A DNA stretch of 56,243 bases from NCBI GenBank assembly GCA_017398045.1, contig JAFQHI010000001.1, positions 1 to 56,243 of the forward strand, written 5' to 3'. Source of the DNA: Alistipes sp. (GTDB lineage Bacteria; Bacteroidota; Bacteroidia; Bacteroidales; Rikenellaceae). Below the pieces are notes generated by a model. That model made no database searches and had not been told where the DNA came from. It was given only the letters and a program-made list of their open reading frames with translations. Numbering within the stretch: position 1 is the first letter of the stretch; each line of letters opens with the position of its first letter. Shown piece after piece: positions 17,981 to 24,250 of the stretch. The position numbers and the translations under genes were made by a program.

Positions 17981-18058
17981 AAAAAAAGGCGAGGTTGCCC
18001 CCACCTTACATGTTTTCACAACGGAATAATCCTTATTGTGATTTGCTTTTAAATTTGT
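17981..18058 (-). ncRNA. tracrRNA of the type II-C system
   Basis: The minus strand carries an anti-repeat complementary to the CRISPR repeat: 24 bases at 18036-18059 (plus) are identical to repeat positions 2-25 in crRNA sense. The motif ACAATAAGG follows, as in other type II-C tracrRNAs, then a short GGA/TCC and CACAA/TTGTG stem region. The terminator is AGGTGGGG-GCAA-CCTCGCCT (17987-18006), an 8-bp stem closed by a GNRA tetraloop, followed by seven Ts. A consensus promoter places the start at about 18057, right at the anti-repeat, so the RNA is about 78 bases. It is needed for crRNA maturation and Cas9 loading. Confidence 0.88.
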
Positions 18059-18062
18059 AAGG

Positions 18063-18094
18063 CAAATATAATCTACAATTCGTAAGTTTCCAAA
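18063..18094 (-). promoter_or_regulatory. tracrRNA promoter
   Basis: On the minus strand TTTG (18091-18094), 20 bases, then TATATTTG (18063-18070). This is a perfect consensus, ending about six bases from the anti-repeat start. It overlaps the cas9 promoter on the opposite strand. Confidence 0.7.
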
Positions 18095-18110
18095 CTTTTT
18101 AGTAAATTTG
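18079..18110 (+). promoter_or_regulatory. Candidate cas9-cas1-cas2 promoter
   Basis: TTCG (18079-18082, one mismatch), 20 bases, then TAAATTTG (18103-18110). The predicted start is near 18116, giving a leader of about 25 bases. A second TAAATTTG at 18126-18133 has no -33 partner and is too close to the ATG. Confidence 0.45.
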
Positions 18111-18133
18111 TGATATATTTTCTTTTAAATTTG
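18108..18133 (+). repeat. Degenerate CRISPR-repeat-like sequence at the cas9 start
   Basis: TTGTGAT (18108-18114) and CTTTTAAATTTG (18122-18133) match two blocks of the CRISPR repeat in order, separated by seven bases instead of three. The second block ends eight bases before the cas9 ATG and is perfectly complementary to the tracrRNA anti-repeat. Confidence 0.55.
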
Positions 18134-18141
18134 ATGAAATC

Positions 18142-21100
18142 ATGAAGCGTGTACTTGGTCTGGATTTGGGTTCTTCGAGCATCGGATGGGCCATCATAGA
18201 GGAGTATAGCAAAGAGGTCCTCTCGGATACCGACCCCATCGAAAAAGACAAAATTGTCGCCATTGGCAGTCGCATCATTCCGTTGAGTGTGGATGAAAGC
18301 ACCCAATTTTCAAAGGGGCAGGCTTTGACAAAAAATGCCGACCGAACAGCCAAAAGGACCCAACGCAAGGGCTATGACCGCTACCAACTGCGCAGAGCTT
18401 TGCTATTGGAAAAGTTGTCGAGTCTGGGCATGTACAACGGCTCAACGCTGAAATGTTCGGCCCTCGAATTATGGGGACTGCGCGCAAAGGCTGTAACCGA
18501 AAAAATCTCCTTGCTCGAATTGGGCCGTGTGCTGTGCCACATCAATCAAAAGCGAGGCTATCGCACTGCAAAATCCGATTATGGAGACAAGAAGCAGGGG
18601 GAATATGTACAGAAAGTTGTGGAGCGTTATCGCGAACTACACGAACAGTCTGCGACTGTCGGCCAATTCCTCTATAATGGACTAAAAGCTGATGCCGCTT
18701 TCCGATGCAAAGAGCGCGTCTATCCGCGTGATGCTTATATAGAAGAGTATGATGCAATCATGCGAAATCAGCAAAGCCACTATCCCAACCTGCTTACGCC
18801 CGAAGTAGTCGCCCATATCCGCGATTACATTATCTTCCACCAGCGACCGCTGAAATCGTGCAAACATCTTGTCGCTAAATGTGAGTTGGAGCGACACGAT
18901 GTTAAGCGAGGTGAGCGCATCGTGAATTGTGGTCCGAAGGTGGCACCGCGCAGTTCGCCGCTCTTTCAGGTCTGCAAAATCTGGGAAAGTATCAATAATT
19001 TGGTGGTCAGGAATCGAGAGAATGATTCGCTGTATATCTCCGTGGAGCAGAAAAAACAGCTTTTCACCTATCTAAACACCCACGATAAGCTGAAAGCAAC
19101 ACAACTGAAAAAGCTGCTCGGCGTAAAATCCAAAGAGTGGCTTTTTAGTCATGCCGTCGGGGGCGGATTGCAGGGTAACACGACCTATTGTGCTATCGAA
19201 AAGGCTCTCGGAAGCTATGCAAAAAAGGAGGAATTGCTGCGCTTTGACCTATGTGTGACAGATGGCAATTTGGTCAATACCGAGACCGGCGAGGTTTCAA
19301 AAGTGATCGACACCTCGTTTGAGCAGCAACCGCTTTATCGTCTTTGGCATACATTGTACTCGATTTCCAATATGGAAGAGTTGCAGCGCGTGTTGAAAAC
19401 CCAATTTGCCATTGACGACGAAGCGGTCGTGGAGGCTTTGTGTCAAATTGACTTTGTAAAGGCAGGTTATGGGAATAAATCTTCGCGTGCCATGCGCAAG
19501 ATTTTGCCCTACATGATGGAGGGCATGCAATACTACGATGCCAAACTGGCCGCGGGTTATGACGATACACCTCTTACCAAAGCACAAAACGAAGCACGCG
19601 AATTGGCCGAAAAGTTAATGCCGATTCAAAAGGGAGAATTGCGCCAGCCTGTGGTAGAAAAAATCCTCAATCAGTTGGTCAATTTGGTCAATGCCCTGAT
19701 GGAGGAGCATGGGCGCTTTGATGAGATTCGCGTGGAGTTGGCCCGCGAATTAAAGCAGAGCCGTGAGGAGCGCGAAAAGAAAACGAAAGATATTGGTGCG
19801 CTCCAACGCCTTAATGAGTTTGTTTCCAAGCGCATCAAAGATGAATATGGATTAACCCCTACCCGTTCCCGTATTCAAAAATACAAGATGTGGGATGAGT
19901 CCGAACATATCTGTATGTATTGCGGAGCCACGATCAATGTACATGAATTCCTGCTTGGCTCCGGTGTGGAGGTAGAACATGTCATTCCTCGTTCGGTGCT
20001 GTTCGATGACAGTTTCTCGAATAAGGTCTGCGCGTGTCGTAAATGTAATCAGGAGAAGGGCAACCGGACGGCTTACGACTTTATGGAAAGTCGTGGCGAG
20101 GGGGCATTAAAAGCCTATGTGGAACGCATCAATGATTTGGTCGAGCGCAAGAAGATATCGAACGCCAAACGCAACAAATTATTGATGAAGGGCAAGGATA
20201 TCCCGACCGATTTCATCGACCGCCAATTGCGCGAGAGCCAATACATCGCCAAGAAGGCCAAGGAGATGTTGCAGGCCGTTTGCCGAAATGTCTATGCGAC
20301 GAGTGGAAGTATTACCGATTTCATCCGCCACCTGTGGGGATGGGACGAGGTGTTGCATACGCTCAATTTCGCGCGTTATCAAGCGGCAGGCCTTACCGAG
20401 TTGGTGGAGCGCGAGGTGGATGGCCGAAAGGTTGAGGTAGAACGCATCAAGGATTGGTCGAAACGCATGGACCACCGCCACCATGCGGTCGATGCGCTCA
20501 CCATTGCCTGCACCAAGCAGGGATATATCCAGCGCATCAACAACCTCAATTCGCTCAAAGAGGTGGCCTTTACCTCTTTGGCCAATGATACACAGGGAGC
20601 CGAAACGCGCCAACGTCTCACGCGCCTCGAACGCTATATCCAACAACAACCCCACTTCTCCACGGCCGAGGTCGCCGAGGCGGTGTCGGGTATTGCCGTG
20701 TCGTTCAAGAGTGGCAAACGAGCTGCAAGTGTGGGCAAGCGTTATATCCACAAGGGAGGTAAACGCATTTGCGCACAAAAGGGCATCATCATTCCGCGTG
20801 GCGCATTGAGCGAAGAGAGTGTCTATGGCCGTATCCGCAACAGCGAAACGGGCAAGGAGGATTATGTTATTAAATATAAGGTAAGCGCAATCACCCTAAA
20901 GGATGTCGATTATGTGGTGGATAAGCGCATCCGCGAGATTTTGCGTAAGCGTTTGGAGCAATTTGGTGGCAAACCCGAAAAGGCTTTTGCCGAACCGATA
21001 CTCGACCACCAGGGGCGTGAGATACGGAGTGTGCGCTGCTACACGGGCTTAAATGCGACCGTCCCCGTGCGTTACAACGAGCAGGGCGAAGCCATCGCCT

Positions 21101-21623
21101 TTGTCAAACCCGGCAACAACCACCATGTTGCAATCTATGAGGACGAAAAGGGGAAGTGGCAGGAGCATATCGTGACCTTCTGGCACGCCGTCGAGCGCAA
21201 GAAATACGGCATTCCGACCATTATTACCAACCCGGGTGAGGTTTGGGAAAAGATTACCGAGCAGATGCCTGAATCATTCCAGGAACAGCTCCCCAAATCG
21301 GCCACCTGGCAATTTAAGTTCTCGATGCAGCAAAACGAGATGTTTATCCTTGGTTTGGAGGAGGAGCTGTATCAAGATGCCATGCACCGTGAGGACTATG
21401 CCTTGTTAAGTAGGTATTTGTATCGTGTGCAAAGCATTAGCCATAACGATTATTTTTTTAGAAATCATTTGGAAACAACAGTGGACGACAAATACAATGG
21501 AGAGAGAAATGCAGCCTTGTCTGTACAAATGGGAAAACTTATTCGTACAAAAAGTCTTGGAAGTATAGCAAGACAAAACCCCCACAAAGTTCATGTCAGC
21601 GTGACCGGTAAAATTACGGAGCT

Positions 21624-21627
<4 letters not shown>
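18142..21627 (+). CDS. cas9: CRISPR-associated endonuclease Cas9, type II-C
   Basis: Cas9 is the crRNA/tracrRNA-guided double-strand DNA nuclease. The 1161-residue protein shows RuvC-I KRVLGLDLGSSSIGWAII (Asp8), the arginine-rich bridge helix around RTAKRTQRKGYDRYQLRRA (residues about 64-82), RuvC-II IRVELARE (Glu532), the HNH domain EVEHVIPRSVLFDDSFSNKV (His613, Asn636 expected) and RuvC-III DHRHHAVDA (His781, Asp784). All nuclease residues are present, so it should be active. Cys pairs CMYC and CRKC flank the HNH motif and probably bind zinc, as in other II-C proteins. It is smaller than the approximately 1400-residue Cas9 of Bacteroides fragilis. It overlaps cas1 by ATGA. The leader contains a repeat-like sequence complementary to tracrRNA. 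Confidence 0.97.
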
Positions 21628-22891
<1,264 letters not shown>

Positions 22892-23004: not shown

Positions 23005-23511
23005 GGTGTGTTTGATATGTCAAAGATACAAATTTAAAAGCAAATCACAACCAGTCGAGAACAACAAAGCAAGCCTGAATGGGTGTGTTTGATATGTCAA
23101 AGATACAAATTTAAAAGCAAATCACAACACTCGGGTGCAAATGCCGCAGCGCAGGCTGGTGTGTTTGATATGTCAAAGATACAAATTTAAAAGCAAATCA
23201 CAACCGTAGCGCTTAACCAGGCAGGCTACAAAACGGTGTGTTTGATATGTCAAAGATACAAATTTAAAAGCAAATCACAACTATATCATAACGCTTGCCA
23301 CAATAGGTGAGGTGTGTTTGATATGTCAAAGATACAAATTTAAAAGCAAATCACAACACGAACATAAATGTCGACGCATTTTCCGAAGGTGTGTTTGATA
23401 TGTCAAAGATACAAATTTAAAAGCAAATCACAACTATTGAGACCGACAAGTAAAACAAAGGTCGGGTGTGTTTGATATGTCAAAGATACAAATTTAAAAG
23501 CAAATCACAAC
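23005..23511 (-). CRISPR. Type II-C CRISPR array: 7 repeats of 47 bp, 6 spacers
   Basis: Identical 47-bp repeats start at 23005, 23082, 23158, 23235, 23311, 23388 and 23465; spacers are 30, 29, 30, 29, 30 and 30 bp. In crRNA sense (minus strand) each repeat begins GTTGTGATTTGCTTTTAAAT, very close to the Bacteroides fragilis II-C repeat, and pairs with the tracrRNA anti-repeat. Each repeat contains GTTG-N19-TATCTTTG, a complete Bacteroidetes promoter directed into the following spacer. The leader should be to the right (23512-23610), next to tRNA-Cys. No repeat is degenerate. Spacer targets cannot be determined without a search. Confidence 0.97.
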
Positions 23512-23655: not shown

Positions 23656-23726
23656 GGTCTGATGGCCGAGTGGCTAGGCACAGCTCTGCAAAAGCTGCTA
23701 CAGCGGTTCGAATCCGCTTCAGACCT
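23656..23726 (+). tRNA. tRNA-Cys (GCA anticodon)
   Basis: The acceptor stem GGTCTGA pairs with TCAGACC and T is the discriminator base. The anticodon stem CAGCT/AGCTG encloses CTGCAAA, giving anticodon GCA. The T arm is GCGG-TTCGAAT-CCGC. CCA is not encoded. Its last 20 bases are copied again at about 24006-24025. A full promoter lies upstream. Confidence 0.95.
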
Positions 23727-23951
23727 CAAAAGCACTACCTGATGGGTGGTGCTTTTTTTGTTTTTATGGCTTTAGGTGTGGTAGGTGGCGCGGAGTCCGA
23801 GACTCCCATGTCGCGTGAGAGGCAACCATCGTGAGCGAGCCCCCGCAGTTGCCTCCCACGCGCCACAGCAAGCTGTCGCGCCACCCATGGTCGTTGCGCA
23901 TTGCTCACCTTTGGAAACAGGGTTGCGGGGATAATACGAGTTGATTGCTCG
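23707..23951. repeat. Direct repeat copy 1: tRNA-Cys 3' end plus palindromic module
   Basis: 245 bp, repeated at 24006-24250 with four mismatches and a period of 299 bp. The copy starts inside the T arm of tRNA-Cys, includes its terminator hairpin (23731-23759), and then a palindromic module: GGTGGCGCG (23784-23792) pairs with CGCGCCACC (23877-23885), and an inner GCGTG-A-GAGGCAAC pairs with GTTGCCTC-C-CACGC. Confidence 0.85.
23731..23759 (+). terminator. Terminator of tRNA-Cys
   Basis: AGCACTACC pairs with GGTGGTGCT (one wobble), followed by seven Ts. A second copy lies at 24030-24058 in the duplication. Confidence 0.75.
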
Positions 23952-24005: not shown

Positions 24006-24250
24006 TTCGAATCCGCTTCAGACCTCAAAAGCACTACCTGATGGGTGGTGCTTTTTTTGTTTTTATGGCTTTAGGTGTGGTAGGTGGCGCGGAGTCCGAG
24101 ACTCCCATGTCGCGTGAAAGGCAACCATCGTGAGCGAGCCCCCGCAGTTGCCTCCCACGCGCCACAGCAAGCTGTCGCGCCACCCATGGTCGTTGCGCAT
24201 TGCTCACCTTTGGAAACAGGGTTGCGGGGATAGAACGAATTGATTGCTCG
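24006..24250. repeat. Direct repeat copy 2: duplicated tRNA-Cys 3' fragment and palindromic module
   Basis: This copy begins with the 20-base tRNA-Cys 3' fragment (TTCGAATCCGCTTCAGACCT) without the rest of the tRNA. It repeats the terminator and the palindromic module and ends at TTGATTGCTCG. The 54 bases between the copies (23952-24005) are unique. Confidence 0.85.

Follow-up and report, generated by a model that had tools for sequence, protein, structure and literature searches.

RNAs that accompany Cas9 are known to act on gene expression in several ways. In the type II-A system of Streptococcus pyogenes, tracrRNA holds down cas gene expression: the available part of PMC11417352 describes a long form, tracr-L, whose 5′ extension guides Cas9 to cas promoter DNA, a process for which a PAM is required. 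In Francisella, the scaRNA contains a diverged repeat that pairs with tracrRNA, and other genes are repressed (PMC8730458, available part). The type II-C-associated scaRNA of Neisseria meningitidis acts on a 5′ untranslated region; as presented in the accessible portion of PMC13431127, it is a different RNA that acts on efeUOB, not tracrRNA acting on cas9. Some small RNAs block translation through pairing close to start codons, relying on a short complementarity upstream of the start codon and an unstructured small-RNA tail.

Here, we describe a type II-C locus of Alistipes in which the leader of cas9 is itself complementary to the tracrRNA anti-repeat, and compare it with these systems. As with tracr-L, tracrRNA would hold down cas gene expression. 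The described self-control of Cas9 by tracr-L works on promoter DNA via Cas9, however, and a site in the leader would differ from it: from its predicted promoter, tracrRNA would begin at the anti-repeat and lack a 5′ extension, and it would be the anti-repeat that pairs with the mRNA. As in Francisella novicida, a diverged repeat able to pair with the anti-repeat is present outside the array. The scaRNA, however, is transcribed as a small RNA of its own and directs Cas9 to other genes (PMC8730458), whereas the stretch described here lies in the predicted cas9 leader and not in a separate RNA with promoter, terminator, and targeting tail. The difference from small RNAs that pair near start codons is that here the small RNA is the cofactor of Cas9, and its pairing letters also bind crRNA. 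Among the matches listed in a search of titles and abstract beginnings in the open-licence literature, we found no report of pairing between tracrRNA and a cas9 leader. We present the locus as a candidate for a new form of RNA-based Cas self-control, in which the site is well supported and the mechanism is proposed.

The cas9 leader element and its complement in tracrRNA

The window, by which we mean the whole stretch of 56,243 nucleotides that was analyzed, contains cas9 (18142..21627, TIGR01865), cas1 (21624..22559, TIGR03639), and cas2 (22556..22891, TIGR01573) as overlapping or abutting genes on the plus strand. TIGR profile matches place neither csn2 nor cas4 beside them, as is expected of type II-C. 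The CRISPR array follows (23005..23511) with seven repeats of 47 nt and six spacers of 29-30 nt; its crRNA sense is the minus strand, on which the repeat reads GTTGTGATTTGCTTTTAAATTTGTATCTTTGACATATCAAACACACC in all seven copies. Divergent from cas9, fold prediction places a tracrRNA of 78 nt on the minus strand (17981..18058, ends predicted), which consists of an anti-repeat that matches the array (18036..18058), then a hairpin, and then a terminator with its stem at 17986..18007. At gathering scores, Rfam returned only a tRNA between 16000 and 24500, and no spacer of the six has a 14-nt match in the sampled genome or in the window beyond the array. We also observed a duplicated stretch of 245 nt (23707-23951 and 24006-24250), the copies of which are 98% alike and 299 bp apart; the first copy starts in the 3′ end of the tRNA adjoining the array.

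An earlier note on this DNA had claimed that a 12-mer directly before the cas9 ATG is identical to repeat sequence and perfectly complementary to the tracrRNA anti-repeat. Both the identity and the complementarity are borne out. The element, CTTTTAAATTTG, occupies 18122..18133 on the plus strand, and because the minus strand encodes tracrRNA, including the anti-repeat at 18036-18058, the match to the repeat makes the element perfectly complementary to tracrRNA nucleotides 2-13 (predicted numbering). The element is indeed upstream of the ATG at 18142, but "directly before" was inexact, with 8 nt in between.

The note had also cautioned that chance similarity must be excluded; genome counts, a gene sample, and the duplex energies of shuffled leaders now exclude it. 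Across both strands of the genome (2,358,920 bases), CTTTTAAATTTG occurs nine times, in the seven repeats, the anti-repeat, and the cas9 leader, and the leader is thus its sole non-CRISPR copy. An order-2 model trained on the window predicts 0.5 occurrences, and the pattern read backwards has no occurrence in the whole genome of 2,358,920 bases. We compared the 45 nt upstream of each of 168 sampled genes, cas9 among them, with nucleotides 1-27 of the repeat; the genes were open reading frames of at least 200 amino acids in the window and in about 263 kb of the same genome. The longest exact match is that of cas9, with 12 nt, followed by 10, 8, and 8 nt for the next genes. When the RNA duplex between the anti-repeat and the last 40 nt of the leader plus 12 nt of cas9 was computed, it reached −15.6 kcal/mol, compared with a mean of −8.5 kcal/mol for shuffled leaders, of which 3 in 500 were as low. 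The leader match is real and not a product of chance.

A second collinear block named in the note, TTGTGAT (18108..18114, plus strand), did not hold up. We rejected it as a pairing block in the mRNA because it overlaps the predicted −7 box of cas9 (18103-18110), so that it is probably untranscribed. The gap between TTGTGAT and the 12-mer is 7 nt in the window versus 3 nt in the repeat, and 3 nt in the relative L080; at the same place, L008, a relative without the element, has TTTGTGATA too.

The leader matches tracrRNA only in its predicted single-stranded 5′ tail. When free tracrRNA is folded by prediction, UCACAAU joins GUUGUGA in the hairpin that follows, which leaves nucleotides 1-17 (18042-18058) unpaired. 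The mean unpaired probability of nucleotides 1-13 is 0.80-0.98 in 17 of 18 loci, the exception being L083, for which the prediction had misplaced the 3′ end. Pairing between leader and tail is short and A/U-rich: in the window, tail and leader reach −10.4 kcal/mol versus −29.0 kcal/mol for anti-repeat and repeat, and cofolding agrees. Two results weaken the case for pairing: when 193 sampled genes were ranked by pairing with the tail, cas9 came second and not first, and the element is only approximately 33% unpaired in a predicted 90-nt mRNA fold. In a member of the Bacteroidetes, initiation falls when there is structure between −20 and +20 (PMC6847099, available part), and complementarity at the ribosome-binding region, a hallmark of antisense control, is present and conserved at this locus.

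Distribution and sequence changes among relatives

We collected relatives by Cas9 (78 loci), with family-wide Cas9 matches in 24 of 268 genomes, and by the tracrRNA core, which was matched in 20 of 268 genomes across the family and in 116 of 393 across the order; 30 loci plus 87 more places were taken from the order-wide matches. We could place the start of cas9 in 210 loci, which yielded 165 distinct upstream regions, 157 of them with a divergent tracrRNA. Only a single Cas9 clade of gut bacteria, comprising 18 loci, has the element; most of these loci are assigned to Rikenellaceae by record title or kinship. It is carried by 11 of these loci (the window's own, L079, and L080, L081, L082, L083, L084, L088, L089, L074, L094, and L095, with L074 a near-copy of L089), as an exact copy in nine and with two changes in two, and is absent in the other seven (L085, L090, L091, L092, L093, L008, and L010). 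The comparison of relatives' leaders that the note called for partly bears out the pairing idea: a site near the start codon is found in 11/18 loci, and in L012/L095 the leader shares the change of tracrRNA rather than following the repeat, but the match is absent in 7/17 clade relatives, an outcome that the note had set as counting against it.

The anti-repeat is canonical in 9 of the 11 carriers and in 2 of the 7 non-carriers (Fisher p 0.049, phylogeny ignored). Five of the seven non-carriers have a changed anti-repeat as well as no element, whereas L008 and L010 lack the element although their anti-repeat is canonical. In the Cas9 tree, the carriers do not form one group; the distribution takes five changes (three to five in bootstrap trees), and a single origin is also possible. 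L095 branches first in the clade with a support of 88/90, under the starred level.

Conservation of the element exceeds that of its surroundings. Across 10 carriers (L074 left out), conservation is 0.967 for the element and 0.983 for the anti-repeat copy, compared with 0.90 for the best other 12-column window, which holds the cas9 −7 box, and a mean of 0.74. The gap between element and ATG is 6-8 nt in 11/11 carriers. The gap between the −7 box and the element spans 6-15 nt; both gaps are 6-8 nt in most carriers, and the contrast comes from the window (11 nt) and the L089/L074 pair (15 nt). In the genomes of nine relatives with an exact or L095-type leader copy, the leader is the only match outside arrays and anti-repeat, with the exceptions of G070, which has one further exact match that is unassigned, and of single CTTTTAAATTTA matches in G068 and G070. 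Because the element is conserved, the note's alternative of a merely decayed repeat left in the leader is disfavored.

Two carriers have a changed anti-repeat, and each of them also has a leader change at the corresponding position (n = 2; p 0.0005 by permutation, phylogeny ignored). In L095, position 10 of 12 is T in the array repeat and C in both anti-repeat and leader; the leader additionally has G changed to A at position 12. The L095 leader forms a duplex of −10.8 kcal/mol with its own tail versus −6.2 kcal/mol with the canonical tail, although G-U pairs let canonical leaders bind the L095 tail equally well. L088 goes the opposite way: leader and anti-repeat are both changed at position 3, to letters that do not pair, leaving 10/12 matches and −7.4 kcal/mol. 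Pairing-preserving covariation is thus seen in one locus, L095.

These changes also bear on whether the element could be a functionless relic of repeat or anti-repeat, kept alike by conversion between copies 71-80 bp apart. Conversion could produce the shared C of L095, and L080 has TTGTGATATTCTTTTAAATTTG where the repeat has TTGTGATTTGCTTTTAAATTTG. A relic would not, however, account for a 12-mer whose conservation exceeds that of the promoter window in the midst of variable letters, or for an element that stays 6-8 nt from the ATG, and we regard this explanation as very unlikely.

To look beyond the clade, we tested 149 of the 157 loci with divergent tracrRNA, 131 of them outside the clade; the other eight were dropped for a stretch from anti-repeat to ATG outside 55-260 nt. 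When pairing with a locus's own tracrRNA was ranked against pairing with the tracrRNAs of other loci, the 131 II-C loci outside the clade had a median rank of 0.56, with 7/131 at ≤0.05. The same test placed 3/11 carriers at ≤0.05, a small number because carriers share nearly the same anti-repeat. An exact copy of the locus's own anti-repeat 12-mer in the last 40 nt was found in 0/139 loci outside the clade (short-interval loci scored as lacking it). Since the 131 outside loci prefer their own tracrRNA no more than those of others, we rejected the idea that tracrRNA generally pairs with cas9 leaders in Bacteroidota, and the generality of the idea is unsupported. A class-wide search of 395 genomes for the anti-repeat type of the clade returned the window's genome alone. 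Two viral contigs match the tracrRNA core, and their cas9 leaders have no element; Cas9 relatives were found in no viral contigs, and three distant ones were found in plasmids. As judged from the sequences compared, the leader feature is that of one lineage.

Predicted promoters and the reading of the element as DNA

The Bacteroidetes promoter consensus is given as TTTG/TANNTTTG in the available part of PMC6847099. We identified boxes resembling this consensus for both genes, with a spacer of 20 nt in each: TTTG (18091..18094) and TATATTTG (18063..18070) on the minus strand for tracrRNA, and TTCG (18079..18082) and TAAATTTG (18103..18110) on the plus strand for cas9. The −33 box of cas9 is weak; TTNG at 20-nt spacing is found in 7/11 carriers and 0/7 non-carriers. 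Assuming that transcription starts 5-6 nt past the −7 boxes, the cas9 mRNA is predicted to start near 18116, the sixth base after its −7 box, with a leader of 26 nt (18116..18141, plus strand). Likewise, the predicted promoter of tracrRNA sits directly at the anti-repeat, with a predicted start near 18058, at the edge of the latter. The two divergent promoters overlap (18063-18110), the −33 box of tracrRNA lying between the −33 and −7 boxes of cas9; one polymerase may therefore exclude the other.

The most serious rival to pairing between RNAs is that the element serves as another −7 box of the sigma-ABfr type (TAAATTTG, 18126-18133, plus strand), that of a leaderless or nearly leaderless cas9 mRNA, its likeness to the repeat being partly coincidence. 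TAnnTTTG is present in 10/11 elements, 14-16 nt before the ATG, a fixed distance that would also suit a leaderless start, and TTTG lies 19 or 21 nt before TAnnTTTG in 5/11. Furthermore, L088 keeps TAnnTTTG where the match to tracrRNA is lost, and among 94 sampled genes, cas9 included, TAnnTTTG begins between −16 and −9 six times. However, L095 has TAAATCTA, which does not fit, and 10/11 likewise keep CTTT as well as both free positions. An upstream TAnnTTT[GA] box is present in 18/18 clade loci (11/11 carriers and 7/7 non-carriers), and the seven non-carriers have no box near the ATG. Leaders shorter than 10 nt make up only about 3.7% in Bacteroides thetaiotaomicron, most being 23 nt (PMC7366714, available part). 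On balance, we consider a second −7 box unlikely.

We also noticed promoter-like sequence in the repeats. The crRNA-sense repeat of the array (23005-23511) contains GTTG, 19 nt, and then TATCTTTG; in the repeats of relatives, the second part is of the TATC-, TACC-, or TATATTTG form, and TAnnTTTG fits in 15/15 array consensus repeats. These repeats may carry a promoter of their own. In genome G159, the locus L236 (1441-1730) has a second tracrRNA copy at the array end. The divergent promoter region of this copy continues, from the TACCTTTG box, into a repeat's 3′ half, an arrangement that looks as though the array leader arose from a copied tracrRNA/cas9 promoter region.

The same 12-mer is present within or next to three promoters predicted at the locus, which would suit a DNA operator through which a regulator acts on cas9, tracrRNA, and array. 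We think this the least probable of the explanations considered: the L095 leader shares the change of the anti-repeat, which the repeats do not, the distance from copy to copy is 72 bp in 7/11 carriers and otherwise 71, 76, 80, and 80 bp, and no regulator is known.

A possible antisense role for tracrRNA

The presence of the cas9 leader site, its conservation, and its place before the start codon are well supported by comparison of sequences. The earlier proposal that tracrRNA pairs with the leader is favored by the conserved site near the ATG in 11/18 loci and by the change shared in L012/L095; the TTGTGAT block and generality are unsupported. We give about an even chance to a mechanism in which free tracrRNA, by pairing with the cas9 leader, reduces Cas9 translation, an effect that crRNA relieves. 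Free tracrRNA, without crRNA, would keep its first 17 nt single-stranded, and its nucleotides 2-13 would pair with the leader 12-mer, 6-8 nt upstream of the ATG, where the initiating ribosome would sit. The resulting duplex would lower Cas9 translation, either directly or via exposure to RNase III. crRNA would bind the whole anti-repeat, and far more strongly, so that enough crRNA would remove tracrRNA and free cas9. Because of this difference in strength, free tracrRNA would be the repressor of cas9 and crRNA would release it, and Cas9 output would track how tracrRNA and crRNA are balanced. We infer both transcription starts, as well as that pairing occurs in cells, that its effect is negative, and that crRNA relieves it.

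Cas9 itself could instead take part, if the leader acts as a false crRNA repeat through which tracrRNA-loaded Cas9 represses its own mRNA, or through which the mRNA serves as a tracrRNA decoy. The leader is repeat-like, and in Francisella the scaRNA pairs a diverged repeat with tracrRNA (PMC8730458, available part). Only 12 nt of the repeat are kept, however, without the part that pairs next to the hairpin, and nothing in the sequence points to a role for Cas9; this reading appears quite unlikely to us.

Returning to control by free tracrRNA, we put just short of even our belief in the broader claim that tracrRNA has a second role as an antisense regulator of the cas9 mRNA of its locus, exerted with the same letters that bind crRNA. 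It would then be a Cas9-independent sensor of crRNA supply, with Cas9 made only when crRNA has claimed tracrRNA. If true, this control would operate at the level of mRNA and read crRNA supply directly, without spacer or PAM, and would be a way to avoid idle Cas9 when guide RNAs are scarce. The sequences of anti-repeats would then be constrained by more than crRNA maturation.
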